A stretch of DNA of 64,000 nt, taken from Sipunculus nudus. Its lineage: Eukaryota > Annelida > Sipuncula > Golfingiida > Sipunculidae. Each line of letters starts with the position of its first letter. Positions within the stretch are counted from its first letter, which is position 1. The stretch spans positions 45,415,058 to 45,479,057 of the forward strand of contig CM049310.1 in NCBI GenBank assembly GCA_026874595.1, read 5' to 3'. Positions 1,780 through 63,346 of the stretch are shown piece after piece. The translations under genes and the position numbers were made by a program. The notes beneath the pieces were generated by a model, which was not told the DNA's origin, searched no databases, and saw only the letters and a list, made by a program, of their open reading frames with translations.

Positions 1780-4700
1780 ACAGGTATGTGTATGTGTCCT
1801 CCATACTTGTAAATAGGTTTTACGAATTATAATTTGGATATTCTGTCATATAGTCTGATTACAAAATAAAATAAAAATACAAAAATATCTTGGTCTGGCG
1901 GGTAGATAATATTTAGTCGGAATTTGCCATAACCGTTTTTTATATACACTTATCTTATATATGTTTTTGTCAACTATTGCCTTCGCAGCTATCAGCAACG
2001 ACAAATTACAGCGTTGATTGAAATATATGTTGAATTCAGTGTTGATAACCCTGCATTCTCACGCGTGTGTGCTCTGTAGGTTTCAAGGACGGAATTTGAA
2101 CAGAAACCGTATAAAGACTTATAAAGAAAACCTACCAATAAGCGCCACCCAACGGGACAACGGTTCACGCATCTTTGGTAGAGCTTTGGTGTTCCTTCCT
2201 GACGTAGAGTCTTGTGTATTATTTCTTCCTGTCTCGCTTGTTGTCTCTGATCTTTACAATTCGACTTACTTGTTTAGTTAATGATTTATGATAAGCTGGC
2301 ATGGATTTATGATATCGGTACCCACGTGACTTGTTACTCGAGTGTTTGATAAACTTTCAGTAAAGTATGAAATTAAAATAATATATTTTTTGTGTCAGCC
2401 AAACGAATCAAATATATACACACTAGCATTTTTATGGGCATGTTCTTTCTCTTCAATGGTTGAGCGTTTTCTTTGTTATGCCATATTTGACCTCCTCCGC
2501 AATACTGCTGGTGCAGCAGCACTTACGCACCTCCATTACAGGAGATTGGGGATCTCCGGAGCCGCGTATTGTAAAAATTCGAAAGTTGTACCTTTTTCAG
2601 TCCGCAGTACAGCTTGAAAGCGACTGAAGGGGTTCGCCCAAAAATGTACCTGTTTTTATGGAATGAAAAAATATAAATGCTTTAATTTGTTCCGTAAATT
2701 GAAAATGTGCCAGATTCAGTGTTGTTTCTTGTAAAGATTTCCCCCGACATAGCTTTGACCTTACACACCATTTCTGACATGTTAGGACCATGGTTGGGCA
2801 TTAACCTGGTCAAACCAAAAAAAAAAAAGTTGGACAAAATACCATAAAACAAGAAAATTTATATACAGTTGGTTGTTAACCCTTGAGTATGAATCACTAT
2901 TAATCCTGAGGTCAAGAAATACTATTAGGCTTAACCGGGAATGCCAGTGTGAGATACACGTGTTCGGACAAAATTTTATTGCAAATATTACCATCTGATG
3001 AAAAAGTACAAAAAAGTGCGTAACACACCCGTTGTAATGACTTTAATGAATGACATCACTAATATGTAAATATTTCGATAATCAGTGGAAAACATTCATA
3101 AAAATTTCATAACAATCCATTGAATTCCTGAAAAGTTACCTAGACGAAAACACGAATGCAAATTACTTGATGCATAGAAGTCTTGTGATCGCAAGAAGCT
3201 GTAAATATGTCACAATTGGTTGTATCGCTAATTCTTGGGGTTTTGTGGCTCAAAATTCCGGGATATTATTTTTTTCAGTCTTCTGTGACAAGCCCCTGTG
3301 CACAGCATCATACCTAGTGTATCCCTAGGCCACCATGATATACCAGCATCATGCCTGTGGTGTTCTTGAATGAAAGAAGTATATTAACAAAATATTATAA
3401 TCTTAATTCGGAGTTCTTTCATGGAAGTATTAACGATATTGTCGGAAGAAAACATATCGAAAAGGGTGCACAGCGGGTCGGTGTCCACAGGCCATCCGCT
3501 GTTCCAAGGCCACCATGTCGCCTGAGGCCACCCGGTGTCCAAAGGCCACCATTCGCGATAGTAATCTGCCACCTGCAAATAATTCATACCGCGGAGAGCT
3601 AATGTCAGGTCAGAGAACACTGATGCATGGTACAATCTTGATGAAAGTCTATATATTTGTTTAAACCATTCATGTGACAATCAAGTTTTTCATAATGTCG
3701 TCCAACCTTTGAAAAAAAATGCTTTCCTGCTATCGTTATCATACGACATACGACAATGACCACAGATTTACGACTTCAGATTACGAACGGATCTATTGAT
3801 CAGGAGCCATTTTGTGTATGATATACTGCAGCTTGTGTTTTACATTATCCATTTCACTAGACTATCTTAATAAACGACCCAGTTCTTGAGACACGCAAGT
3901 GCCCTAACATTATGAGACTCACACATACCCAGCATAATTTATCTCTGTTATCTCAGTGCCGGGCGGATATCATGCTTTCATGGTAACACCCAGTGATGCA
4001 ACCATCGATCGTGACATAATTCGCTTTGCTAGCGAAAGAACCGTATTTGTTGTACGCTTATATACATACCGCAAACCAAATCTGATGACGATCCAGATAG
4101 TATATTCAAGATCTACTGAACCAGAATTTCGGCGGATGTTAGCGGTTGCTAAGTGCTTTCTAGTTACTTATTTTTTGTGTATATTCATCAGAGCTTTCGA
4201 TAGGAAGAATTTTTAAGAGTTCCGGACGCCAAAAAACTAAATTTCCGACGTGCCAGATGGGAAGTTTGAGCTTCCCACTAGGTTTTCGTCAAATCTGTAA
4301 AGTTGTGTAACATTGATTTTTTTTATTTTACGTAATTTTCGTAACAATACTTGATTAAATATCATGTCATTATATGATTATATGGAGTGAAATCTAAGGG
4401 TTACGTCTGAGCAAATTGTTGTTTAAGGTAGTCGGAAATGAACAGGCAGTGCTAAAAAAGCAAAATTTGATTCTTTAATTCAGTCCAACAGCTAGGTATT
4501 TCGCGCGTCTAGTCGGATGCCTGGAACCATAAACCCGAGCGTCTGAGGGAGATTCCGAGCGTCCCAGACTCTCATATCCGCGTTCATGAAAGCCCCGATT
4601 CATAACTACTAGATGTACCTCTGGTTCTGTCTGATTAGCTGGTAAAAACTGAATGTCCTGTGCTTCTAGGAGGGAGAGTTGTTCATGATATAAAGATCGC

Positions 4701-6418
4701 ATGTGCTTTTCCAGGAAACCCCCTACTTTAAAAATGTCAGCAAAGAATGGCAAATTATGCTATTCAGGAAATCAAACAAAAAAGTAGACATGAGGCATAC
4801 GTACGGTATCCGAGGTTTGCGTGAACATCACATAAAACGATATGTGTAATTGTCAATTGATAGACGTCTGGGGTATAATAACAAACACGTTTATGTCATT
4901 GCTACTCGAAAATGCACCTAAAAGCGTGCAATAAGGAAAGACAGGCTCAGACAAGTAGATTCTTTGTTGATTATAATCAGGATGATCGGAAACCGATGAT
5001 GCTCCAAGATAAACGGCAGGATTACATGTTTCGGTGCTATTTCGTGGCAAAGAAATAACTTCAGCCTTGGTTCGTTGCTTTGTCTTAATATAATTTAACA
5101 CAAAAAGGTATATCCGGATTTTTCAGAAAGTGTGCATAGGTTTATAAAACCATATGAACAATCCATTAAACGTTGAAGGTAATCAAAATCAGCAAAATAT
5201 AATATTTTCTTAAATACCATTCTGAAAAAAAGAAGATTTTAATAATTCCCCGTTTAGATTCCGCCCCTTCGTATGCATTTGTTCTGCCACTAGCCAGGTG
5301 AAACCGAAGGTTTTTTACGCTCCGACTGCAGAATCTAGTTTGTTAATAGAATCCCTACATTGCGGATCTTAAAAAGATATGTGTGCATGCATCCAGCTCC
5401 CCCCCCCCCCTTAACTGTGTTGTAGGACTTCGAACAACCTATAAATTGTTTGAACAATTGAAACCATAATTATTACGGTTGTCGTTTGATCCCAACTGGA
5501 AAGCCCTCGCATTCACAGCGAAGTCCTGTGGTTATTGTTTTGAATAAAAAAGGCCTTTCTTCCTGTTGAGGGAAGCAGTGGGATCAATGGGGATTAGAGT
5601 GGACCTGTGACTGTATATAGCACAATTCGCTCTGTGACCAGTAAACTCGAATTCAGGAAAAATTCCCCCGAGGCACCACCAGAAAAAAAACGTGACAGGC
5701 GTGGAGGACCTTAAAGCACAAAGGACATAAGGGTACCTTTTGGGATAATATTAAAATTATAATGTATGCAGGTTAATAGAGCATCCCGCAAATTAAAACA
5801 AAAATGTTCTAGAAGAGCGCACTGCCGATACTTGTACCGAATTGCGAAGGCCAAATCAGAACGAATTCAGGTTAACCATTGTCTTTAAAAAAAAATATAT
5901 ATATATATATATAAATTCTTAAAACGCTACAAAAAATTATACGTAACAGTAAGATTATTTATGGCTATTAAATGATATAGTGGTTGGTACTAAGTGGTAA
6001 CTTGGTTGATTAATTTAAACTTCCAAAGCGGCTCATTGGTAATCAATGACAAAGAACCAAATATAATAAACTTTCATAGTCGGGATTACCCTAATTATTC
6101 TGAGGATAGTAAAACATATTTTTCAGAATAATACAAGATAAATGTAATGAAAACAAGTGACCCATAGATCAGGATGCTCAACTGAAGAGCCTTCCTCTGA
6201 AAACAAAATTAACATAAACCTTACACGTGACCTTGACCTTTGACATTTGACACCAAACATTGATAGGGTTGTTTAATAAGTGATGGTTCAAAAGTCTTAA
6301 TCCAGTGATTATCCAGCAAGAAACTCTACTGAACTATCAATATAGGTTTTGCTGATAAAACTATTCTTGATCAGTAGACATACGAGGTTTAAGAACACTA
6401 GATGGGATTCCACAGCTG
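1780..6418. other. no gene seen; simple tracts only
   Basis: No exon-like or protein-like stretch was recognised. It holds a poly-C run near 5,400-5,410 and a short (AT)n tract near 5,888-5,914. Reading frames here are 98 codons or fewer and look like chance. Confidence 0.55.
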
Positions 6419-6630
6419 ATTATTTACAGTCCATGCCGTGCTGCCATTTGTCACCCGCTTATGTAATGGCAGCACGGCATGGACTGTAAATAATATCTTT
6501 GGCAAGCAATGAATCAATAACGCCGTCTGCCGCGAGGTGGCAGCACGGTATAGACTATTGGAAATAAATGGGAGGCAAGCAATCAATTAGTGACACCATG
6601 TGCTGCGAGATGGCAGAACGATATAGACTT
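6419..6630. repeat. perfect 30-bp hairpin followed by degenerate 73-bp repeats
   Basis: Bases 6,419-6,448 are the exact reverse complement of 6,465-6,494, with a 16-base loop. The right arm starts a short series of units (from 6,468, about 6,539 and about 6,611). Each begins ggcagcacgg or a close variant and contains gcaagcaatnaat. This is probably the remnant of a foldback element or a small satellite. Confidence 0.85.
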
Positions 6631-6904
6631 TTTAAGAACGATTAGGTTGCGAAAATGGCCAGAGAACTGTTATAGAGCAAATATTGGCACAACAACGCGT
6701 TACTTTCACTAATAAAACTGACAAGGAACATGATGATAATTCAACGTATTTTTACGGATAACGTTGCGCTATTCTTGACCATATTTACCTACGCCGCTGG
6801 TGTATTTAAAACCACAGTGTTTAGTTTGGTTATATTTTCATTATCCTTATAACCATAACCAGCGTAGTCATGTCTCGTGAATCAAATTCTGCGCAGTATA
6901 CTGC

Positions 6905-7310
6905 AATTTATTATCCCCACGCAATGAAGTTGCAGGAGATACGGTAACGCAACCGTTCATGCGTCCGTCCGTCCATCCGGAGGTGGACGCATTTTAAGCG
7001 AAACAATATGATAAAAACTTTCTTCTTCGGCACAGAGCTCACACTGCAAAAGAGGAAGATCCTTTTTGATTTTGAGGTCACGGGCTCAAAGGTCAAGGCC
7101 AAAGAACACACTTCTTGGAAAAGATTTGGATGCATTTCATAAGCTTACATACCAATATAGGAAGAAACCTGTTGATTATGGGGTCAAAGGGTCAAGGGTC
7201 ACAGAACCGCACTCCTGATTTTCATACTGTTTATTAAATCCAGTCCAATTATGCTCACGTGCGGGTGGATGCTCCGCTTTGCGGTTCCCGTGTTATAAAT
7301 GTATCGGGGT
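6905..7310. repeat. dispersed-repeat-like block with cgtc tract and 'ggtcaaggtc' motifs
   Basis: It starts ttattatccccacgcaatga, carries a cgtccgtccgtcc tract at about 6,963, and has repeated aggtcaagg/ggtcaaaggg motifs. It ends with a short palindromic stretch around gctccgctttgcgg. The style matches repeats I associate with bivalve genomes. No second full copy is in this window, so boundaries and class are uncertain. Confidence 0.45.
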
Positions 7311-7936
7311 ACAACCATCTGTAAAGACCGAATTGCTTTTTAACTCACTCAGAAGGGAGTTTAGGCATTGATAACTTCTAGGACTACTGGGAGAGCCAGG
7401 GTATCGAGCTCTAAATTATTGTGATTTTTATTTGGCTATAAGATTCGCTGTATCTCTCAACACGGTTAAAAATATGGATTTCATTTTGTTATTTATTTTG
7501 GCCTACTTTTGACTTCTTGCTCTGACGAACCCAGATTTTTGTAGGTGGCACACTCCTGTATTTTTTTAATCTACTTATTTTTTCACAACAACAGTGGTTT
7601 ATGCTGTACAACATATATGGTAATGACGTTTTAAGAATGTATGCCGGTGAGCTGTAAATTAGAATAGGCCATAACAACTAATTATCATCAGTGAAGCTCC
7701 TCCCAAAGCGCACTAGGAACCAATCGTTATTTTGCTCATATGATGCATAAGATTATTTTTTTCTCGTAAGAATAATTATATTCTTTGTTTGTTTTAATTG
7801 TTAGAAAATACTAAGTAAAATTGTATAGGTTACCGAGCGGATCTTGTGAAATATATTGAATATTTACGGAATATATTCAAGATTCTTCACACTGAGGCGA
7901 CTAATAAATTATTATTTTTGTATATCATATAGTTGT
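7311..7936. other. no gene seen
   Basis: AT-rich; nothing recognisable on either strand. Confidence 0.5.
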
Positions 7937-8764
7937 CAGGGGCGTAGCCAGAATTGAGGGAGGGGAGGGGGCCATCATCAGTGGCGGATCAAGAAATTCG
8001 AAAGGGGGGGGGGGGCGTTAATATGCATGTATGGGTAATATGAAAACGGTTATATATACAAGTATATAAATGTATATTATTATTATTATTATAATTTTTA
8101 CTATACTTTATATATTGAAGTATATGAAAATATATATATATTTATTTTCAATTATGAACCATGGTATATTTAAGGCTAGTTACGGGTACATGTATGGGGA
8201 AGGTATGGGAGGGGGTTTTCCCCTCACATATTGGGAAATTTCAATCGTTTTCAAACGAGTCAATGGCGCAAAAGCGCAATCAGGTTTTTAACTATCAAAA
8301 TATTATCTTTTAAATGTAATGCTCGTGGTGAAATAACTGATAAGCTGAATTATTATGTAAAACTTCGCATTTTACCGGTTTCCGTGGTCTCGACAGCACG
8401 CAGGACTCCTAAGAGCTCAACACAGATCGCGAATTTGAGTACCGGTATCACCAGAGGCGCCGTAAGATTGTTCACGGTCTACCCCAACCAGGGCCCGGTG
8501 CTCGATCGATCTGCAGTTGTTCTGCAGCTGTCAATAAATATCCTTATACTCAACTAATAAATTTGAAAGTAATTGTAACTGCAGATAACCTAAATAAAGT
8601 CTATTTGCCTATTAATAATAAGAAATATAAAAAAAAACGAGATTAATCACGAAAATCGGAAATAAGATAAAATGAGAGATTTTGCAGCTCAACGGGGGGC
8701 CGCGCGCCGGAGGCGCCCCTTCTGAATCCATTATACTGATAGCATATATCCGCCCCTGATTTAA

Positions 8765-11339: not shown

Positions 11340-11900
11340 TTTTCAATTATGACATTTTTATTATTACGTTGACATGTCCCCATGTCAACTACCAGCAGAT
11401 AAATGGTATACATACAAGCACATTCGGAGAGCCGAGGTGCCAGGCTTACTAGAAATGGTGATTAAAATTCCTGTGGAAAGGCGATGAGGGCCATACTGGC
11501 CAAGAGACTGTTTATTTTGTAAGTCTATCATGTCTGTGATGAATTTATACCATTACGTTGTCATAGCAACGGTTGTGATTTTGCATGACTGTGACTTGAA
11601 ATGACCATGAATTTTATTGTACTTGATCAGACAACATCAAGTATGTATCATTTGACCAAATAATGTTTTTGTTTGTTTAGTAGCAAATATATGACTTATC
11701 CATTTCTATGATGACATGGTAACGGGTCAGATGGCCAAAACCACCCAAGATTAATGGCAAACAAGCATTTTCTAATAGCTGAGGTTGATGGCAAACCAAA
11801 ACAAGTGACCCATGGGTCATGACGCTCAGCTGACTGGGAAGAGATTTGCAAAGGGAAATTTTATCATCTGAATGGAAGTATATACCCATTCAACTGAAGC
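11340..11900. repeat. ~381-bp tandem repeat family, left part
   Basis: It shares ordered landmarks with 14,060-15,000: catgtctgtgatgaattt, a ccattacgttgtcat stretch, caacggtt, and gattttgcatgactgtgac. The copies are clearly diverged. The family is split by the 338-bp array that follows. Confidence 0.7.
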
Positions 11901-11939: not shown

Positions 11940-13970
11940 TTTATATATCTCAAAAATAAAGAAAAAAAGCGTAAACTTTAAAAAAATACAGGTGGCTCCA
12001 CCAGTCTGCAGAAACTAATAAAAACACTTAATGGTCAATATCCATGCAAAGAATCATGGTGATCTCTGCATTAGTTGTTCAGATACTTCAACCTTTGTAT
12101 CAAATTTTCCATAATTCTGAGGGATACTTCGGAGTCCTATAGCTTGAAGGATATGGGAAACGGAGACCTATTTTCAGGTTTGCACATACACTTTTCATGA
12201 GCCTCCTTGCATGACTAGAATGAAAATTCTAGGTCCTGTTGTTACAATTTGTTCCACGTTAACCGATGACAGCATGCTTAAAGGTCTCAAAAATAGAGAA
12301 AAAAATTCGAAAAATTAAATAAAATACAGGTGGCACCACCAGTCTGCAGAAACTGATGAACACTCCATAATCAATATCCATGCAAAGAATCATGGTGATC
12401 TCTGCATTAGTTGTTCAGATACTTCAGCTTTTGTATCAAATTTTCCATTATTCTGAGTTGTACTTTGGAGTGCCACAGCTCAAAGGATATGGGTAACAGA
12501 GACCTAATTTCAGGTTTCCATGGAGACTTTTTATGGGTCTCCCAGTGTGTCAAGAATGAAGATTCTAGGTCCAGTTGTTATGATTTGTGCCCTGTTTACA
12601 GATGTTCATATGTTTAAAGGTCTCAAAAATAGAGAAAAAAATTGTACAAAAACTCGAACTAATACAGGTGGTGCCACCAGTCTGCAGAAACTGATGAACA
12701 CTCCATAATCAATATCCATGCAAAAAATCATGGTGATCTCTGCATTAGTTGTTCAGATACTTCAGCTTTTGTGTCAAATTTTCCATTATTCTGAGTTGTA
12801 CTTTGGAGTGCCACAGCTCAAAGGATATGGGTAACAGAGACCTAATTTCAGGTTTCCATGGAGACTTTTCATGGATCTCCCTGTGTGTCAAGAATTAAGA
12901 TTCTAGGTCCAGTCGTTACGATTTGTACCCTGTTGACAGATAACTACATCCTTAAAGGTCTCAAAATTAGAGGAAAAAAATTGTAAAAATTAAAAAAATA
13001 CAGGTGGCACACCCAGTCTGCAGGAACTGATGAAACACCTCTTGACCAATATGTATGCCAAAAATCATGACCATCAGTGTTGTAGTTATTGAGATGTTGC
13101 AGTTTGTTTTTATCATATTTTTCCATTATTCTGAGGGGTAATTGGGAGCCCCACCTCTCAAAGGATATGGGATACAGAGACCTTATTTCAGGTTTCCATG
13201 GAGACTTTTCATAGGTCTTTCACTGTGTCAAGAATGAAGATTCTAGGTCCAGTCTTTACAATTTGTGCCTGTTAACAGATGTTCACATTTTTAAAGGTCT
13301 CAAAAATAGAGAAAACAATTCGTAAACAATCCGAAAAATACAGGTGGCGCCACAAGTCTACAGAAACTGATGGAACATCTCATGATCAATATGTATGCCA
13401 AAAATTATGACCATCAGTGATGTAGTTAATGAGATATTGAAGTTTTTGTATGAAATTTTTGACTATTCTGGGGGGGGGGGGTACTTTTGGGCCCAGTAGC
13501 TTGAAGGATATGGGTAACAGAGACCTTATTTCTGGTTTTCATAGAGACATTTTTATAGGTCTCTCAGTGTGTCAAGAATGAAGATTCTAGTTCCAGTCTT
13601 AACGATCTGTGCCCTGTTAACAGATGTACACATTTTTAAAGGTCTCAAAAATAGAGAAATAAATTCGTAAAAAATCGAAAATACAGGTGGCGCCACCAGT
13701 CTACAGGAACTGATGGAACATATCATGATCAATATGTATGCAAACAATCATGACCATCAGTGATGTAGTTAATGAGATATTGAAGTTTTTGTATGAATTT
13801 TTTTACTATTCTGGGGGGTACTTTGGGGCCCCATTGCTCGAAGGATATGGGTAACAGAGAGCTAATTTCTGGCTTTCGAGGAGATTTTTCATGGACCTCT
13901 CAGAATTTCAAGTAACAAGTTTCTAGGTCCAGCAGTTACGATTTGTGCCAGGTTAACGGACGGACGGACG
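11940..13970. repeat. array of six ~338-bp tandem units
   Basis: The landmark acaggtggc(a/t)ccacc recurs with its ggtggc core at 11,991, 12,329, 12,667, 13,003, 13,343 and 13,686, a spacing of 336-343 bp. Each unit also has ctgcaga(a/g)aactgatg, a conserved 'caaaggatatgggtaacaga' stretch and caggtttccatggaga. Neighbouring units 2 and 3 are most alike. No reading frame persists through the units, so this is non-coding satellite DNA. Confidence 0.92.
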
Positions 13971-27642: not shown

Positions 27643-28179
27643 CTAAAGGCTGTTAAATTCCCACGCTGTGTGTTCCTTCCTAAGCTTATGCTCAATCAGC
27701 GATGGTTCTCGAAGCTGCAGACCCCTTGGAGTCATGTATCTTGTCAGATTCGGTAAAGGAACTGCATATAATACCACTGGGTGTTAAAATTGCTTCCAGA
27801 TCAACTACAGGGGCCCAGTAGTCGTCTTTAACAGGAACAAATAAAATATCAAGGGTAAAGAACTACGCTACAAAAAATATGCACCAGTGGAACACTGTAA
27901 GAAGCCGTGGTAGGCCTGTTACAACACAAATATAAAATCCAGTAGTTTTTTTAAAGCTCATTCACTATCGTAAATTTCTAAACAAAAGGTGAGCTGTTGA
28001 GTCACCGTTTCAGAGGAAGGCACATTTTCCCTGTCATGGAAAAATAATTCTTTATAGGTCAGGGTCTAACGCCTCATATTCCAGGTCAGCTGGCTCCCCG
28101 GACCCATCTTCTTGACAAAGGTAATTTTTGTTAATAATACGACACAGAGGAAGGAACTTTTGTTACCGTATCTGACACG
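27643..28179. other. no gene seen
   Basis: Flank of the minisatellite. The minus-strand open frame of the array runs into this stretch and ends at 28,066. Confidence 0.5.
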
Positions 28180-31100
28180 AGAAGCCGCTGCCTTATGGGC
28201 CGTGGGAGAATGCGGAGCCATTGCCTTAACGGCCATGGGTGAAGGTGGAGCCGCTGTCTTACGGGACATGGGAGAAGGTAGAGCCGCTGTCTTACAGACC
28301 ATGGGAGAAGGTAGAGCCGCTGTCTTATGGGTCATGGGTGAAGGTAGAGCCGCTGTCTTACGGGTCATGGGAGAAGGTAGAGCCGCTTTCTCACGGGTCA
28401 TGGGAGAAGGTAGAGCCGCTGTCTTATGGGTCATGGGTGAAGGTAGAGCCGCTGTCTTACGGGCCATGGGAGAAGGTAGAGTCGCTGTCTTACGGGTCAT
28501 GGGTGAAGGTAGAGCCGCTGTCTTACAGACCATGGGAGAAGGTAGAGCCGCTGTCTTATGGGTCATGGGTGAAGGTAGAGCCGCTGTCTTACGGGTCATG
28601 GGAGAAGGTAGAGCCGCTTTCTCACGGGTCATGGGAGAAGGTAGAGCCGCTGTCTTACAGACCATGGGAGAAGGTAGAGTCGCTGTCTTACAGGTCATGG
28701 GTGAAGGTAGAGCCGCTGTCTTACGGGTCATGGGAGAAGGTAGAGCCGCTGTCTTACGGGCCATGGGAGAAGGTAGAGCCGCTGCCTTACGGGTCATGGG
28801 AGAAGGTAGAGCCGCTGTCTTACGGGCCATAGGAGAAGGTAGAGCCGCTGTCTTACGGGCCATGGGAGAAGGTAGAGCCGCTGTCTTACGGGCCATGGTA
28901 GGAGGTAGAGCCGCTGTCTTTCGGGCCATGGGTGCAGGTAGAGCCGCTGTCTTACGGGCCATGGGTGCAGGTAGAGCCGCTGTCTTACGGGCCATGGGTG
29001 CAAGTAGAGCCGCTGTCTTACGGGCCATGGGTGAAGGTAGAGCCGCTGCCTTACAGGTCATGGGAGAAGGTAAAGCCGCTGTCTTACGGGCCATGGGTGA
29101 AGGTTGAGCCGCTGTCTTACGGGTTATGGGTGAAGGTAGAGCCGCTGCCTTACGGGTCATGGGAGAAGGTAGAGCCGCTGTCTTACAGACCATGGGAGAA
29201 GGTAGAGCCGCTGTCTTACGGGTCATGGGAGAAGGTAGAGCCGCTGTCTTTCGGGCCATGGGTGCAGGTAGAGCCGCTGTCTTACGGGCCATGGGAGAAG
29301 GTAAAGCCGCTGTCTTACGGGTCATGGGAGAAGGTAGAGCCGCTGTCTTACGGGCCATGGGAGAAGGTAGAGCCGCTGTCTTACGGGCCATGGGAGAAGG
29401 TAGAGCCGCTGTCTTACAGGCCATGGGAGAAGGTAGAGCCGCTGTCTTACGGGCCATGGGAGAAGGTAGAGCCGCTGTCATACGGGCCATGGGTAAAGGT
29501 AGAGCCGCTGTCTTACGGGCCATGGGAGAAGGTAGAGCCGCTGTCTTACGGGTCATGGGAGAAGGTAGAGCCGCTGTCTTACGGGCCATGGGTGAAGGTA
29601 GAGCCGCTGTCTTACGGGTCATGGAAGAAGGTAGAGCCGCTGTCTTTCGGGCAATGGGTGAAGGTAGAGCCGCTGTCTTTCGGGCCATGGGTGAAGGTAG
29701 AGCCGCTGTCTTACGGGCCATGGGTGAAGGTAGAGCCGCTGTCTTACGGGTCATGGGAGAAGGTAGAGCCGCTGTCTTACGGGCCATGGGTGAAGGTAGA
29801 GCCGCTGTCTTTCGGGCCATGGGTGAAGGTAGAGCCGCTGTCTTACGGGTCATGGGAGAAGGTAGAGCCGCTGTCTTTCCGGCCATGGGTGAAGGTAGAG
29901 CCGCTGTCTTACGGGCCATGGGTGAAGGTAGAGCCGCTGTCTTACGGGTCATGGAAGAAGGTAGAGCCGCTGTCTTTCGGGCCATGGGTGAAGGTAGAGC
30001 CGCTGTCTTACGGGTCATTGGAGAAGGTAGAGCCGCTGTCTTTCGGGCCATGGGTGAAGGTAGAGCCGCTGTCTTACGGGCCATGGGTGAAGGTAGAGCC
30101 GCTGTCTTACGGGTCATGGGAGAAGGTAGAGCCGCTGTCTTACGGGCCATGGGTGAAGGTAGAGCCGCTGTCTTTCGGGCCATGGGTGAAGGTAGAGCCG
30201 CTGTCTTACGGGTCATGGGAGAAGGTAGAGCCGCTGTCTTTCGGGCCATGGGTGCAGGTAGAGCCGCTGTCTTACGGGCCATGGGAGAAGGTAAAGCCGC
30301 TGTCTTACGGGTCATGGGAGAAGGTAGAGCCGCTGTCTTACGGGCCATGGGAGAAGGTAGAGCCGCTGTCTTACGGGCCATGGGAGAAGGTAGAGCCGCT
30401 GTCTTACAGGCCATGGGAGAAGGTAGAGCCGCTGTCTTACGGGCCATGGGAGAAGGTAGAGCCGCTGTCTTACGGGCCATGGGTGAAGGTAGAGCCGCTG
30501 TCTTACGGGCCATGGGAGAAGGTAGAGCCGCTGTCTTACGGGTCATGGGAGAAGGTAGAGCCGCTGTCTTACGGGCCATGGGTGAAGGTAGAGCCGCTGT
30601 CTTACGGGTCATGGGAGAAGGTAGAGCCGCTGTCTTTCGGGCAATGGGTGAAGGTAGAGCCGCTGTCTTTCGGGCCATGGATGAAGGTAGAGCCGCTGTC
30701 TTACGTGCCATGGGTGAAGGTAGAGCCGCTGTCTTACGGGTCATGGGAGAAGGTAGAGCCGCTGTCTTACGGGCCATGGGTGAAGGTAGAGCCGCTGTCT
30801 TTCGGGCCATGGGTGAAGGTAGAGCCGCTGTCTTACGGGTCATGGGAGAAGGTAGAGCCGCTGTCTTTCCGGCCATGGGTGAAGGTAGAGCCGCTGTCTT
30901 ACGGGCCATGGGTGAAGGTAGAGCCGCTGTCTTACGGGTCATGGAAGAAGGTAGAGCCGCTGTCTTTCGGGCCATGGGTGAAGGTAGAGCCGCTGTCTTA
31001 CGGGTCATTGGAGAAGGTAGAGCCGCTGTCTTTCGGGCCATGGGTGAAGGTAGAGCCGCTGTCTTACGGGCCATGGGTGAAGGTAGAGCCGCTGTCTTTC

Positions 31101-32274
31101 GGGCCATGGGTGAAGGTAGAGCCGCTGTCTTACGGGTCATGGGAGAAGGTAGAGCCGCTGTCTTTCAGGCCATGGGTGAAGGTAGAGCCGCTGTCTTACG
31201 GGTCATGGGAGAAGGTAGAGCCGCTGTCTTTCGGGCCATGGGTGAAGGTAGAGCCGCTGTGTTTCGGACCATGGGTGAAGGTAGAGCCGCTGTCTTACGG
31301 GTCATGGGTGCAGGTAGAGCCGCTGTCTTACGGGCCATGGGTGCAGGTAGAGCCGCTGTCTTACGGGCCATGGGTGCAGGTAGAGCCGCTGTCTTACGGG
31401 CCATGGGTGCAAGTAGAGCCGCTGTCTTACGGGTCATGGGAGAAGGTAAAGCCGCTGTCTTACGGCTCATGGGTGAAGGTAGAGCCGCTGCCTTACGGGT
31501 CATGGGAGAAGGTAGAGCCGCTGTCTTACAGACCATGGGAGAAGGTAGAGCCGCTGTCTTACGGGTCATGGGTGAAGGTAAAGCCGCTGTCTTACAGATC
31601 ATGGGTGAAGGTAGAGCCGCTGCCTTACGGGTCATGGGAGAAGGTAGAGCCGCTGTCTTACAGACCATGGGAGAAGGTAGAGCCGCTGTCTTACGGGTCA
31701 TGTGAGAAGGTAGAGCCGCTGTCTTACGGGCCATGGGAGAAGGTAGAGCCGCTGTCTTACGGGCCATGGGAGAAGGTAGAGCCGCTGTCTTTCGGGCCAC
31801 GGGAGAAGGTAGAGCCTCTGTCTTTCGGGCCATGGCTGAAGGTAGAGCAGCTGTCTTACGGGCCATGGGTGCAGGTAGAGCCGCTGTCTTACGGGCCATG
31901 GGTGCAAGTAGAGCCGCTGTCTTACGGGCCATGGGAGAAGGTAGAGCCGCTGCCTTACGGGTCATGGGAGAAGGTAAAGCCGCTGTCTTACGGGCCATGG
32001 GTGAAGGTTGAGCCGCTGTCTTACGGGTTATGGGTGAAGGTAGAGCCGCTGTCTTACGGGTCATGGGAGAAGGTAGAGCCGCTGTCTTACGGGTCATGGG
32101 AGAAGGTAGAGTCGCTGTCCTACGGGTCATGGGAGAAGGTGGAGCCGCTGTCTTACGGGGCATGGGAGAAGGTGGAGCCGCTGAAGAAGAGTTCCGTTTT
32201 AACTCAGCATAATGGTAAACCCCACCGCATTTTTGTTGAATTTCTGAACGCATGAATACAAGCATGGCTCGCAC
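28066..32274 (-). other. candidate repeat-protein frame across the minisatellite (one stop)
   Basis: On the minus strand one frame runs from an ATG at 32,274 through the whole array to a stop at 28,066, broken by a single TGA at 31,165-31,167 (a CGA arginine codon changed by one base). It would encode repeats of KTAALPSPMAR. The start lies in the dispersed repeat at 32,188-32,541, and the tail after the array is not recognised. Two of the commonest unit variants are silent in this frame (cgt/cga and tct/tca). There is no similarity to a known protein and no clear promoter or splice evidence. It may simply be a minisatellite without stops. Confidence 0.18.
28180..32185. repeat. 33-bp minisatellite array, about 120 units
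   Basis: The unit is ggtagagccgctgtcttacg followed by ggccatgggagaa (33 bp), repeated head to tail for 4.0 kb with no spacers. Main variants are tac/ttc after gtct, ggcc/ggtc before atgg, and gggaga/gggtga. Units at both edges are more degenerate. Higher-order copies exist: rare variants recur 990 bp apart (30 units; for example ctttcc at 29,871 and 30,861, cattgg at 30,011 and 31,001). A 231-bp (7-unit) repeat lies at 28,296/28,527, and one variant (aggttgagcc) recurs 2,904 bp apart (88 units; 29,101 and 32,005). Because 33 is a multiple of three, several frames stay open throughout. Confidence 0.97.
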
Positions 32275-32541
32275 GGGTTACTAGACGCAGCCAACTTGTA
32301 CGTGATACAGGAAATAACTCGTTACCATAGAGACGGAGTTTCAGTTTGTGCCGTGAGTTCCGTATATTCTCTGTTTATTCATCATTGGTAGCGTAATGTG
32401 AAGATTATGGGCTGTTTAAAATATGAATGCAAAATAATGGAAGACCACTTCGATGCATTCCTCGATAGTGCTTGTATCACGACACAAGTAGGCTTACCAT
32501 CCCAATTGTCATTGCCTACTGAGTCGGGTTGTCACGGCTAG
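32188..32541 (+). repeat. dispersed repeat, copy 1 (also at 60,978-61,341)
   Basis: Aligns along its whole length with 60,978-61,341 in the same orientation: gttccgttttaactcagcat, catgaatacaagcatggctc, ctcgttaccat, and the end ctgagtcgggttgtcacggc. Copies are roughly 80-85% alike by eye. It begins within a few bases of the last minisatellite unit. Class unknown; no transposon ends were identified. Confidence 0.85.
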
Positions 32542-36486: not shown

Positions 36487-38219
36487 TACGGTGGCTGATT
36501 TAGGACACAGAAAAAAATATTTATCTCGAGATCTCGAGATAACATCTCGAGATCTCGACATAGAATTTCGCAAAAAAAAAAAAATTTAAGAAGCAAAAAA
36601 AAAAAAAAAAATTTTAGGAAGCAAAAAAAAAAAAAAAATTTTTAGGAAGCAAAAAAAAATTTAGACGGCAGAAAAAAAATTTTTAGGTAGCAAAAAAAAA
36701 TTTTTAGGAAGAAAAAAAAAAAAAATTTAAAAACGAAAAAAAAAATTTTAAGGAGCAAAAAAAAAAAAAAAAAAATTATCTTTCGAGATCTCCAGATAAA
36801 ATGTCACACTTGTACGAACCATTCGAAGCCGAATTGACATAAAACAAAGCAACCTTATGGGGACAGTATACGTTAAGAGTGCTCACTATTGCAATTATAA
36901 AACAAAGACCATGTATACTGTGTTTAACTGAACGGTAATACAATATAATTAATTTAAAATCAATCAAGTTTGTATATCCCCTGAGATAAGACGAGTTGAA
37001 GAAAAGTTCAATATAAATTCAATATTTAATTATTCATATCCGTAAGGAAGATGTCAAAGCCTAAAGAATCTGAAACATTCTACCTGAACGGCGGATTCGG
37101 AGCCATGTCTGTTAAATCACTCAAATAGAAATGTTTAGGTCTGCATGCATGCATTGTGGGTACCTTATTATTTTAAGAATACAAACAAATATGAGCTTCT
37201 TATAGAAACACGCTTTTTGTACAATTTCTTTCAGCTATTGTTTTATTAAAATGGTGTGTTGTTTTATGGAACATGTATTAGACCATCATAAATTAAAATA
37301 TGCTAAAACTGATTACTGTGTTTTCGGGTAGGTACGCTGGGGGGGGGGGGGGGAGGGGGGGTTGTCGGGGAGGGGCGTTGCTTCAGCCCCTAAAGCCCAA
37401 GTCTTGATCCACTATAGCTCTTACTATAGCTCAGATTAATTTAATCAACCTATCTTCATAAATGTTATATATTTATAAATTAACGGTTAAAAATTTCGAT
37501 CATCTCTCATCATGATTTTTTTTCTTCAGCAAAATGCTCTGCTTTGGTCTTAAAGTCGCTATTCACCTGCCTTATTTATAGAATCTTTGTAATACAGGCT
37601 AACTCTGCATATACATATTAAAGAAGTGAAAGTAATCATAAACATAATCTAGTCAAACATAATCTATTAACCTTTCATAAAAATGAGCCAATGCCATGGG
37701 TAAAGGCGATGTCTTTGTCTATATCCACGTTTTTTTATAACATGGGTCGGGTTGGGGGATGGGGGGGGGGGGGGGTGTGTGCAAAAATTGCCACCGATCG
37801 TAATAGAAAGACGTCCGGCAGAAACATCTGGCTTCAATTCAGAGATTACAGATTTCTGTAAATGACAAATACTGCATTGCTTCACATGCTCTAACGAATA
37901 TCAACTAGTGATCTTTCAATAACTCGGTTACATGTTTTTATCTGTATGTTAACACTTGCTCAAGTGCCTTGTATACAAGTAGCCTGTAGATGAAATGTTT
38001 ATACGTCAAAGTGGCGTTATAAAACCCATTCCCAGCTGGGGTTTCTTCCTAATTTTTTTTTTTTGCTTCCTAAAATTTTTTGTTTTGCTTCCTAAAAAAA
38101 TTTTTTTTTGCTTCCTAAATTTTTTTTTTTTTGCGAAATTCTATGTCGAGATCTCGAGATGTTATCTCGAGATCACGAGATAACTATTTTTTTTTCTGTG
38201 TCCTAAATCAGCCACCGTA
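36487..38219. mobile_element. non-autonomous DNA transposon with 6-bp target duplication (1,733 bp)
   Basis: The ends are near-perfect inverted repeats of about 90 bases starting tacggtggctgatttaggac. Inside each end is a palindromic set of tatctcgagatctcgagata/acatctcgagatctcgac, then a ladder of gcaaaaaaaa...tttagga units: about eight on the left (36,570-36,775) and about four on the right (38,045-38,135, inverted). Perfect gtttcg duplications flank it. The interior (36,776-38,040) includes two poly-G runs (37,339-37,360 and 37,758-37,776) and no transposase frame. A 6-bp duplication would fit few known superfamilies (IS3EU and Dada are reported with about 6-7 bp); assignment is not possible from ends alone. 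Confidence 0.88.
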
Positions 38220-40740: not shown

Positions 40741-41167
40741 GTGCCACTTGACACTAAAAAAAAGGAAAATTGCCCGCAAAGTCCAAAGCAAATAATTTGT
40801 CTTAAGTAGATCCATCAAAAGAACTTGCAGATCAGAATACGCTTGAACTGAGACTTGTTTGCCAAAGAATCGCTTTCATGAAAATGGTAGGCTTACCAGG
40901 AGGGAAACAACAGGGAATTCATGGACCAGCAGTAAATGTCCCAGCAAAACTTGATGCGGTATGTGAGGTACTTCCGAGACTACCTTCAGAGTCGCAAGTT
41001 GTTGGAATGAAATTGAAGAGAAGTTTGAAACACTCCTCTTTCTACATGTATGATTCCGTTGTGGCCTGATGTGGTGATGAATGCTCTTAGATGGTTAAGA
41101 AAGAAAACCCACATTATGCAAATATTGAAATTAATGAAAATTGGCTAGAAGATTCGATAAATGATGA
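40741..41167 (+). pseudogene. Helentron N-terminal region (DUF6570-like)
   Basis: The + strand reads KLPAKSKANNLS, then, after a stop, DPSKELADQNTLELRLVCQR, then IAFMKMVGLPGGKQ and HGPAVNVPAKLDAVCEVLPR. These are the conserved linker that precedes the OTU or Rep part in animal Helitrons. The frame ends at 41,069 with TGA. Read one base over, it continues PDVVMNALRWLRK, then shifts back into ENPHYANIEINENW. At least two frameshifts and one stop are visible. It is part of the Helentron polyprotein, not a separate gene. Confidence 0.82.
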
Positions 41168-41339
41168 TTCTAGGCTTTGGCATGCTGTTTCTCCAACAGA
41201 CGAAAATGACTGTTCAACTGAAAAACAGGGTGAAACTAAAGAAAAAGTTACCATTAGAAAAGGAAACGTCATTGAGAAAAGGCGACGCCATACTGAAGTT
41301 GTTTCTGTGACTAATATGAGTGACGGTCAAAGTGACTAT

Positions 41340-41930
41340 GAAAAATTGATGACAATGGCCAGTCAGAGTAGAATGCATGTTATGGATGTTCCCGGAGATG
41401 GAAACTGTATGTTTTATGCATTTTGATACCATCTTGAGAGGTTAGGTTATAACTGATACGAACGTCATTCTTTTACGTAACCAAGTGGCTGACTATATGA
41501 TTGAGAACAAGGAAAATTACATTGAATTTGTTGCTACTAGAATGGAAAGTGAAGACCATGCAACTGCTGACATCGAACAGCCGACTGCTGAAGATTTGTT
41601 CGTTAATCAAATGACAGACAGGGACACCCAAAGAGAAATCCAGTGGATAAGATACATAGATGACTTAAGGAATCAAAGTTGGGGTGATCATCTGGTGCTC
41701 CAGGCTCTAGCAGACATGTATTCAGTGAAAGTGAAGGTTCACTCAACAAGTGCTCTTATGGTTCACACAATACACCCAAGGCTTGCAAGTAGTAAAACAC
41801 AGGAAATTGATCTCGGACTTCTGGGGCAGTCGCATTATGTGATATTTGAGCCATTCACCGAAACTGCTGTAGAAATGAATGAATACGATGTTTGCCAGGA
41901 CGATAGTAAAAGTAATCAGAGCACATAAAC
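41340..41930 (+). pseudogene. Helentron OTU cysteine protease domain
   Basis: DGNC at 41,397-41,408 provides the catalytic Asp/Cys motif, followed by MFYAF and an immediate stop. The frame is restored in 41,485-41,928: 'NQSWGDHLVLQALADMYSVK' is the central OTU segment, and LGQSHYVIF carries the catalytic histidine (codon 41,833-41,835). OTU domains are deubiquitinase-like cysteine proteases captured by many Helentrons; their role in transposition is not settled. Catalytic residues are present, but the stop at 41,426 separates Cys from His. Confidence 0.85.
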
Positions 41931-42079
41931 TGCCTGTGACAAAGTTGATGGAAACATGTCATGTTCTGAAGAAGACGAAGACCTAAGAGAACAGGATGAA
42001 TATGCATTTGAAGAAGCATCTAAATTACGATGGCTGCCATATGAAACAAGTATGATGAATGAAGATCCTGAATTACTGA

Positions 42080-43690
42080 ACAAAATAATGTGTTGCGCCA
42101 GCTGATGGAGCAAAACCAATGCCACTTTTTAGTGATCCTAACTTTGAGGAATTATCAAATCCTGACAAGTATCCTTACGAAAAAATGCACTGATAGCTGA
42201 ACGACCTGTTTACTTGAATCCTCGAAAATATTTCAACCAAAGATTATTTGATGTTGATGGCGGATTTTCAAGATCTATTGAGTACATATTAATTGCACAA
42301 TATGCAACTGAATGTAACCAAGTTACAGGTGACATTAATCACTACATTTTCAGACGGGCTAGTGGAAGACGCTTTCAGGGGAAACGGCTGACTGCAGGCA
42401 TGGTAAAAAATGTAGAACAGATGAAAAGTTTTGTAAAATCAGATAAAGCCTACAGAATGTTGAAAAACGTCAGGGGAACTCCGGCCTATTTCCAAACTGT
42501 ATTTTATGACGTTTTAGGCATGGTTCGACAGCTAGGAATACCAATGTGGTTTTTCACAGTTTCTGCTGCTGACATGCAATGACCTGACGTGATTCAAACA
42601 ATAGCGAGACAGTATGGGACGATATTGACTGATGATGATGTGAAACAATTATCTTTAAATGAGAGATAACAATGGCTGAGAAGAAACCCAGTCACTGCTG
42701 CACGCCAGTTCCAGTACGGATTAGAACGGTTGTTCAGAGATGTCCTGAAATCAAAAGATCAACCATTAGGGGAAATAGTTGACTACGTTATTCAAATAGA
42801 ATTCCAGGCTCGTGGTTCTCCTCATGCACATACACTTATGGGTGAAAGATGCACCGGAAATTGACTCGGATGCAGATGAAACAGTTGCATCATTTGTTGA
42901 CAAATACATTACATGTGCAATACCTGGTGATGAAGACGAAACTCTGGAAGAACTAGTCAAGGAATTGCAAACTCACACTTACTCAAGTTATTGCAAGAAG
43001 AAAGGACCGTGTAGATTCAGCTTTCCTAGACCACCTAGCCCCGTAACACTCATTGCAAAAGAACCAGACGATGAAATGGCAAAACTATAGAAACATTGTG
43101 GATCCCGTGTACTCCAAAGAGTGAATGATGTAATGTCCGTTGAGGATACGTCAAAAGACGCCACACTGGAACAGATTCTAGACAAAGCCTGTGTTTCCCT
43201 GCAAGACTACATTCAACAGTTACTGGTTTCATAAAGAGGCAAAACAATAGTATTAAAGAGGTCACCAACAGAAAGTTTATCAATCCATACAACACAGTCA
43301 TACTGAAAGCCTGGCAGGCAAACATGGACATACTTTACATCATAGATGCATACGCATGTGTAATGTACATTGCTGCCTATCTGACCAAAATGAAAAAAGG
43401 CATTGGGGAGCTGCTAAAACAAGTATGTAAAGAGTACAAAGACCAAGAGATTAAATGAATGCTTCGACGTGTAGGTTCGGTTTTCCTAAATCATCGTGAA
43501 GTCAGCGCTCAAGAAGCTGTTTACCGAATATTATCGATGCCCATGAAACAATTCAGTAGAGAAGTCATATTTGTTAATACAGATACAAAAGATGTGCGGA
43601 CAGCTGTTCTCAAACCACAGAAAAACTGGACGTTTTGGGGGATCAAGAGGAAAAAATTTTCCAGAGCAATGTTATTGAACGATACTCTTT
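42080..43690 (+). pseudogene. Helentron Rep (HUH, two-tyrosine) nuclease domain
   Basis: Segments in several frames match animal Helitron Rep: PADGAKPMPLFSDPNFEEL, PRKYFNQRLFDVDGGF (42,214-42,582), 'TARQFQYGLERLF'-type spacing, and EFQARGSPHAHT with the metal-binding His-Ala-His at 42,823-42,831. The catalytic tyrosine pair is in YACVMYIAAYLTK, with Tyr codons at 43,366 and 43,378, four residues apart. Stops occur at 42,580, 42,667, 43,088, 43,232 and 43,456, with a frameshift just after the HUH motif (about 42,838). Rep normally nicks and joins DNA strands during rolling-circle transposition. Active-site residues are still readable, but the protein is broken. Confidence 0.9.
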
Positions 43691-62710: not shown

Positions 62711-62795
62711 CGATTCGCTTCTTGTATAACACAGATAATTTCAATCTTGGTAATTGTTACTATTACGCCATTTTAAGTGATACTTCTTATTTCAG

Positions 62796-63276
62796 ACGAT
62801 GGCCTTTGGATTATGCAGAGGAAACCTTCCTAGGGAAAATGAAAACCACCAACAAACCGGGGAAAAAGTTGAATTGAAGCGGCGAATAAGCTTATACCAA
62901 GCCCCGGCTGTGATCGTTGGCCTTATAATTGGTGCCTCCATTTTTATAACGCCTGGAAAAGTTCTCGAAGGAACCGGAAGTCCGGGTGTCGCCATTTTGA
63001 TATGGTCGTTGGCGGGAGTGCAAGCGACTGTGGGAGCGTTATGTTATATAGAGCTGGGAGTGACGTATCCTTCATCAGGGGAGAAATACGCCTATCTCGA
63101 AAAAATGTACAGCCCCGCGGTGGCGTTCTGCTACATGTGGATGTATCTTTTTATGTTCAGACCTGGCGTACAAGCAATTAAATGCATCACTTTTGGAAAA
63201 TATATTCTACAACTAGCGTTCCCGGACTGTAATCCCCCAGAAAGCGCTGTCAAACTGCTTGGTGTCCTTCTTTGCG
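62796..63276 (+). CDS. SLC7-family amino acid transporter, first coding exon
   Basis: Encodes the N-terminal 159 residues of an SLC7-type light-chain amino acid transporter, a plasma-membrane exchanger that normally pairs with an SLC3 heavy chain. The start is ATG at 62,799, three bases after a good splice acceptor (cttatttcag), so a 5' non-coding exon probably lies upstream. The cytoplasmic N-terminus ends LKRRISLYQAP. TM1 (about residues 34-54) holds GASIFITPGK, matching the unwound substrate-binding helix. TM2 contains WSLAGVQATVGALCYIELG, and 'FRPGVQAI' fits the conserved RP region of TM4. Cys144 in FPDCNPPESAVKLL aligns with the cysteine that forms the disulfide to the heavy chain. The exon ends at a gcg|gtaatg donor in phase 1. 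The family's GSGIF/GAGIF motif is GASIF here, and 'SGG' is SGE. Cystine/glutamate-like, LAT and b(0,+) types cannot be separated from this part. Confidence 0.92.
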
Positions 63277-63346
63277 GTAATGTTATATTTTTTCTTTTCA
63301 ATTATCAATAATTTAATAAGCAAATGATATTTATTTAACTGTTTTA

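Follow-up and report, generated by a model that had tools for sequence, protein, structure and literature searches.

Minisatellites are arrays of head-to-tail units of approximately 10-100 bp, extending from 0.5 kb to tens of kb, in which point variants are interspersed among the units; in the GC-rich minisatellites of humans, the unit measures tens of bases. A tandem repeat whose unit number varies among individuals is referred to as a VNTR, and a minisatellite is regarded as hypermutable when germline change reaches about 0.1% per gamete or more. Higher-order repeats of the alpha-satellite type consist of a multi-unit block repeated many times in register.

The array described here has counterparts among human loci. 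As discussed in PMC2599865, MS32, MS205 and CEB1 are likewise GC-rich, carry interspersed variants, and gain or lose units or blocks. The Y-chromosomal MSY1 shares with the present array gains and losses of 1-3 units among its changes, as well as the fact that exchange between homologues is unnecessary, but it is described as AT-rich and hairpin-forming and as arranging its units in blocks of one type (PMC2599865), whereas here the types are interspersed. Unlike MSY1, the present array has had a block of approximately 30 units copied. We are confident that it is a GC-rich, probably non-coding eukaryotic minisatellite, altered over time as whole units are added or removed. As such it is an ordinary element of an already-known kind, and the explanation needs no biological function for it. 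A literature search on 33-bp minisatellites in molluscs returned no paper.

Organisation of the array

The window, i.e. the whole 64,000-nucleotide stretch analysed (G000:C5:45415058-45479057), contains at positions 28183-32183 a tandem repeat with a period of 33 bp, 121.2 copies, 91% matches and 0% indels (Tandem Repeats Finder). When read in a fixed register, the unit map comprises 121 units of 33 bases each, arranged head-to-tail without spacers, with the + strand consensus AGCCGCTGTCTTACGGGCCATGGGAGAAGGTAG; the right border lies where unit 122 departs from the pattern. An earlier sequence-only reading had proposed about 120 spacerless 33-bp units in a repeat richer in GC than its surroundings, and both points are borne out: no other unit length occurs, and GC content is 0.57-0.59 in both 2-kb bins of the array vs 0.32-0.42 in the remaining 30 bins of the window. 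A 33-bp unit, a length of 4.0 kb, the lack of spacers and the interspersed variants are all those of a minisatellite. GC skew in the array bins is +0.28 to +0.29, and the CpG observed/expected ratio is 0.73 in the array vs 0.81 outside.

The 121 units fall into 44 types, including 25 singletons and a commonest type with 19 members. Units 1 and 2 have diverged furthest, with 6 and 7 differences to the consensus; the final two units show 4 and 2. An Rfam scan yielded no match at gathering scores, and exact unit matches were found neither in viral contigs nor in bacterial and archaeal ones, a result that has little bearing on relatives among eukaryotes. In the genome searched (1.43 Gb, 153 contigs), 92 exact unit matches were detected, every one of them inside two arrays: that of the window, on contig C5, and one of 127 units on contig C3.

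Recurrence of blocks inside the array was assessed against shuffled orders of the units in three ways. Exact runs were scored by the rarity of the equal units, 300 shuffles giving a best score of 19.4 bits and a 95th percentile of 12.9 bits; seven-unit stretches, with mismatches allowed, were compared with 2,000 shuffles; and mean unit likeness over all pairs was calculated for each of 99 spacings, again with 2,000 shuffles. The strongest signal lies at 990 bp (30 units), where exact runs 11 and 8 units long score 43.3 and 31.8 bits, beyond all 300 shuffles, and where the seven-unit value was reached by 0 of 2,000 shuffles. Differences per unit at a lag of 30 delimit the pair to 29206-31185 (units 32-61 and 62-91); within it, units 32-58 and 62-88 are nearly identical, with 5 differences in 27 units. 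At 2,904 bp (88 units), a single block pair stands out, units 24-30 (28942-29172) and 112-118 (31846-32076), unmatched by any of the 2,000 shuffles in the seven-unit test, while over all pairs this spacing is no closer than chance (744/2,000). At 231 bp, one exact run of four units, 4-7 and 11-14 (28282-28644), reaches 18.3 bits, above the 95th percentile and below the best shuffle, and the seven-unit test is not significant (167/2,000).

The sequence-only reading had listed these three spacings as levels of higher-order repetition. That description is too strong, given that each corresponds to one block pair in the window copy: the 990-bp spacing stands fully, the 2,904-bp spacing as a pair of blocks though not as a general period, and the 231-bp spacing as an exact run that the mismatch-tolerant test does not support. 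The list had also missed 363 bp, with an exact run of 19.2 bits (again above the 95th percentile and below the best shuffle) and 10/2,000 in the seven-unit test. Overall, blocks of 4, 6, 7 and approximately 27 units recur, and those other than the 990-bp one are pairs or short dispersed blocks. The 231-, 990- and 2,904-bp spacings are separate block duplications rather than three nested periods, since the 2,904-bp distance becomes 3,135 bp in the C3 copy. As in alpha-satellite-type repeats, multi-unit blocks have been copied whole; in contrast to them, the 990-bp block is present twice rather than in many tandem copies, so that the array is not a higher-order repeat array, and the significant partners of the short block made up of units 24-30 number one on C5 and three on C3, their spacings differing from copy to copy.

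Growth by block duplication, as the same reading had suggested, is supported by spacings far beyond those of shuffled unit orders. Growth by single units, its companion claim, fares less well: no surplus of equal neighbours is left in the array, adjacent units being no closer than in shuffles (346/2,000 in C5, 245/2,000 in C3), although one difference between the two copies does involve a single unit. Over all pairs in the window array, likeness exceeds chance at spacings of 30, 2 and 3 units (0, 0 and 7/2,000) and at some others, for example 27, 37, 34 and 35 units (3 to 9/2,000), but not at 7 units (149/2,000). Lags 2 and 3 are likewise closer in the C3 array (4 and 0/2,000).

A shared block on two contigs

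BLAST comparison showed C5 and C3 to be collinear from window position 11515 to the window end and for 8 kb further, where sampling ended. Outside the array, the long aligned pieces have 98.7-99.5% identity, decreasing to 94.7-97.1% between approximately 35.4 and 38.6 kb. The left border, at 11515, is sharp, with no N nearby on either contig. Just within it, a 338-bp tandem repeat occupies 11948-13957 (5.9 copies), with relatives elsewhere on C3. On the right, the segment C5:45520001-45522500, located 33 kb beyond the sampled end, has itself as its only full-length match among the best 40 of 7,912 candidates, which would place the size of the shared block between 60.5 and about 93 kb.

Segmental duplications are defined as segments of at least 1 kb that occur elsewhere in the genome with at least 90% identity. 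The shared block, at least 60.5 kb long, agrees with this definition in length and identity, its occurrence in two real places hinging on the assembly. It appears to be a recent two-copy segmental duplication, comprising window positions 11515-64000 and continuing on C5 to at least 45487057, with its counterpart on C3 from 43470700 to at least 43532000. A 3-kb segment flanking the array on the right has two full-length matches among the best 40 of 9,783 candidates.

Alternatively, the C3 copy could stem from an unpurged haplotype of the C5 locus, a piece of which was joined into C3, the two arrays then representing alleles. Stretches with 0-0.5% and with 1.4-2.7% difference do alternate along the block, 2-kb bins differing mostly by 0-0.6% and by 1.4-2.7% from 34 to 40 kb, and such alternation is common between haplotypes. 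Against this stand the sharp left border devoid of N on either side and the behaviour of the surrounding sequence: window positions 5000-8000 and a segment of C5 at 10 Mb match only themselves at full length (among the best 40 of 4,536 and of 2,654 candidates, respectively), as does C5:45520001-45522500, for which, moreover, the 3 kb of C3 predicted by a constant offset contain no match. Near-identical matches are also absent from 80 kb and 70 kb of C3 surrounding the positions where C5 44.0 and 47.0 Mb would be expected to fall. The single match at 10 Mb and the lack of near-identical matches in these parts of C3 indicate that this is not simply an assembly in which both haplotypes were retained; these results, together with the single match of window 5000-8000, led us to drop the idea that C3 and C5 are homologues, i.e. 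whole-chromosome haplotypes. A misjoin is compatible with all of these results. The haplotype piece is considered improbable, though it deserves to be taken seriously, and the apparent segmental duplication is the reading followed below.

Changes between the two copies

Alignment of the C5 and C3 arrays by units gave 117 paired units with 13 substitutions (0.34%) and four whole-unit differences, C5 having 3 and 1 extra units and C3 having 2 and 8; the sites and number of these events depend on the gap costs chosen, and under another setting the right-hand differences become one large block. For instance, units 38-40 (29404-29502) are present in C5 and missing from C3, the exact site varying with gap costs. 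Unit length is unchanged, at 33 bp throughout. In the left flank, 28 substitutions and 12 indels were counted over 16,644 aligned bases (0.17% substitutions), and 9 substitutions (0.5%) over the first 1,816 aligned bases of the right flank. Hence, point changes accumulate in the arrays at much the rate seen in the near flanks, and it is the number of units that shifts. Two other arrays within the block changed less than the 33-bp one: a 58-bp minisatellite has 59 units in C5 vs 60 in C3, and the 338-bp repeat measures 2,010 vs 2,011 bp. The former lies at 2343-5765 past the window end (approximately 2.3-5.8 kb beyond it).

The 990-bp pair is found in both arrays and is therefore older than their split. 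The C3 equivalent of the 2,904-bp pair sits at 3,135 bp, with further partners of the block of units 24-30 at 2,574 and 2,376 bp (1 and 19/2,000 shuffles), and at a spacing of 2,904 bp the units of C3 show less likeness than shuffling would give; the shift and the extra partners imply that block gain or loss continued after the split. The comparison, being of two copies within one assembly, reads gain and loss alike, and likewise exchange and slippage. The agreement in unit order over 117 units between two separately placed copies makes it unlikely that the array itself is an assembly artefact.

MSY1 changes at frequencies reported at the percent level (PMC2599865). With only four changes in unit number beside about 0.3% point divergence, the present array suggests a far slower turnover, and comparison of the copies suggests a rate that would fall below the hypermutable level.

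As to mechanism, a broken or stalled strand would re-pair out of register, whether within its own array, on the sister chromatid or homologue, or on the second copy, and a block would thereby be copied or dropped, either by unequal exchange or by synthesis-dependent strand annealing. The blocks would afterwards be marked by point mutations. Such out-of-register repair has also been put forward for the GC-rich minisatellites of humans and for MSY1 (PMC2599865), and PMC10502081 provides background. No special structure is invoked, because hairpin folding of the array is no better than that of shuffles on both strands (z about +1.0) and G3 quadruplex motifs, with loops up to 12, are absent from it; strand structure as the driver was rejected on the same two results. 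Units also match the GGGCAGGANG core no better than shuffled units do.

The locus has little significance outside itself. If the duplication is genuine, the pair of arrays would constitute a small natural experiment on minisatellite change, in which the flanks date point divergence and the unit maps record structural changes over an equal time. It would also allow one to ask whether units are exchanged between arrays on different chromosomes.

Coding potential and neighbouring elements

Long open frames do exist on both strands, as the sequence-only reading had noted, but they do not behave as coding sequence. They measure 1,032 and 370 codons on the minus strand and 1,117 and 865 on the plus strand; four of the six consensus frames lack stops, and three of these also stay open over long stretches of the actual array. 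Openness is explained by the small number of codons in the unit that a single change could turn into a stop. The minus frame LPSPMARKTAA (28066-32277, - strand), open through the array except for a TGA at 31165-31167, is not supported as a gene, although it could in principle encode a long, basic protein built from repeats of 11 residues, with the reading frame maintaining the 33-bp length. Consistent with such a protein, the frame runs uninterrupted through the C3 array (1,448 codons from stop to stop), a single stop occurs across the 121 units of the window copy, and all 248 units of the two arrays are 33 bp long. The openness of this frame says little, as only 0.3 stop variants are expected in it. 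Similarly, the absence of indels within the 248 units, compared with 39 indel events to 155 substitutions in the flanks, lends little weight to a constraint on unit length; many of the flank indels may be located in AT-rich simple repeats, which are absent from the array.

Substitution patterns tell against the protein. Distinct variants among the 248 units were each counted once against the consensus, ignoring recurrence, and the minus frame showed 44, of which 8 synonymous and 36 not, vs 13.3 and 30.3 expected; 99.7% of random draws gave as many or more synonymous variants. Between C5 and C3, differences in this frame are 9 non-synonymous (one being the stop in C5) to 4 synonymous. In the three other stop-free frames, 9, 15 and 15 variants are synonymous (12.7, 11.3 and 12.0 expected), and 2, 4 and 3 create stops. 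A synonymous excess, as purifying selection would leave, is not significant in any of the four (P 0.052 to 0.997, uncorrected), the lowest value belonging to a plus frame (15 vs 11.3) that nevertheless has 4 stop variants; moreover, two plus-strand frames are about as open as the minus one.

Homology searches were equally unfavourable. For the 1,032-codon minus piece, the best Pfam hit has E 0.0091 (16.2 bits, the cut-off being 90), and of two weak sequence matches in the PDB the better aligns with part of a ribosomal protein, residues 186-242 (E 0.0039); the 370-codon piece has no Pfam match. The plus frame AAVLRAMGEGR (865 codons) gave whole-protein Pfam scores above cut-offs for cNMP_binding (53 bits), DUF7586 (33.7) and DUF134 (30.6); these were set aside, as no single stretch passes and they are sums over the repeats of a stop-carrying frame. 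FAM101, on the other plus frame, scored 21.7, under its cut-off of 27. A protein-coding repeat on the minus strand is very unlikely, and marginally less credence still is given to a fast-evolving exon on that strand, whose product, some 1,400 residues long, would be repetitive, basic and rich in proline, with the frame fixing the unit length and the residues free to drift. The array is better described as a minisatellite, as above.

That the array is part of a mobile element and spread along with it could be suspected from the OTU and Helitron helicase-like domains at 41.4-42.6 kb and the inverted-repeat element at 36.5-38.2 kb, both in the window. This is barely credible, considering that exact units are confined to two arrays (92/92 matches) and that the 3-kb right flank has the two full-length matches given above. 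The dispersed part of that flank starts approximately 950 bp away from the array, and mobile-element origin was rejected because the flank is not dispersed beside it.

Some further features of the window may be recorded. The inverted repeat at 36505-38199, whose 99-bp arms are 95% complementary and are accompanied by tandem repeats rich in A or T, falls within the most diverged section of the shared block. Positions 41446-42579, with OTU-like protease and Helitron helicase-like domains, probably represent a Helitron-type element, and the C5 and C3 copies show zero differences over 41000-42999. At the right edge, an open stretch at 62781-63308 carries an AA_permease_2 (amino acid permease) domain (E 6.8e-18) and is probably an exon.
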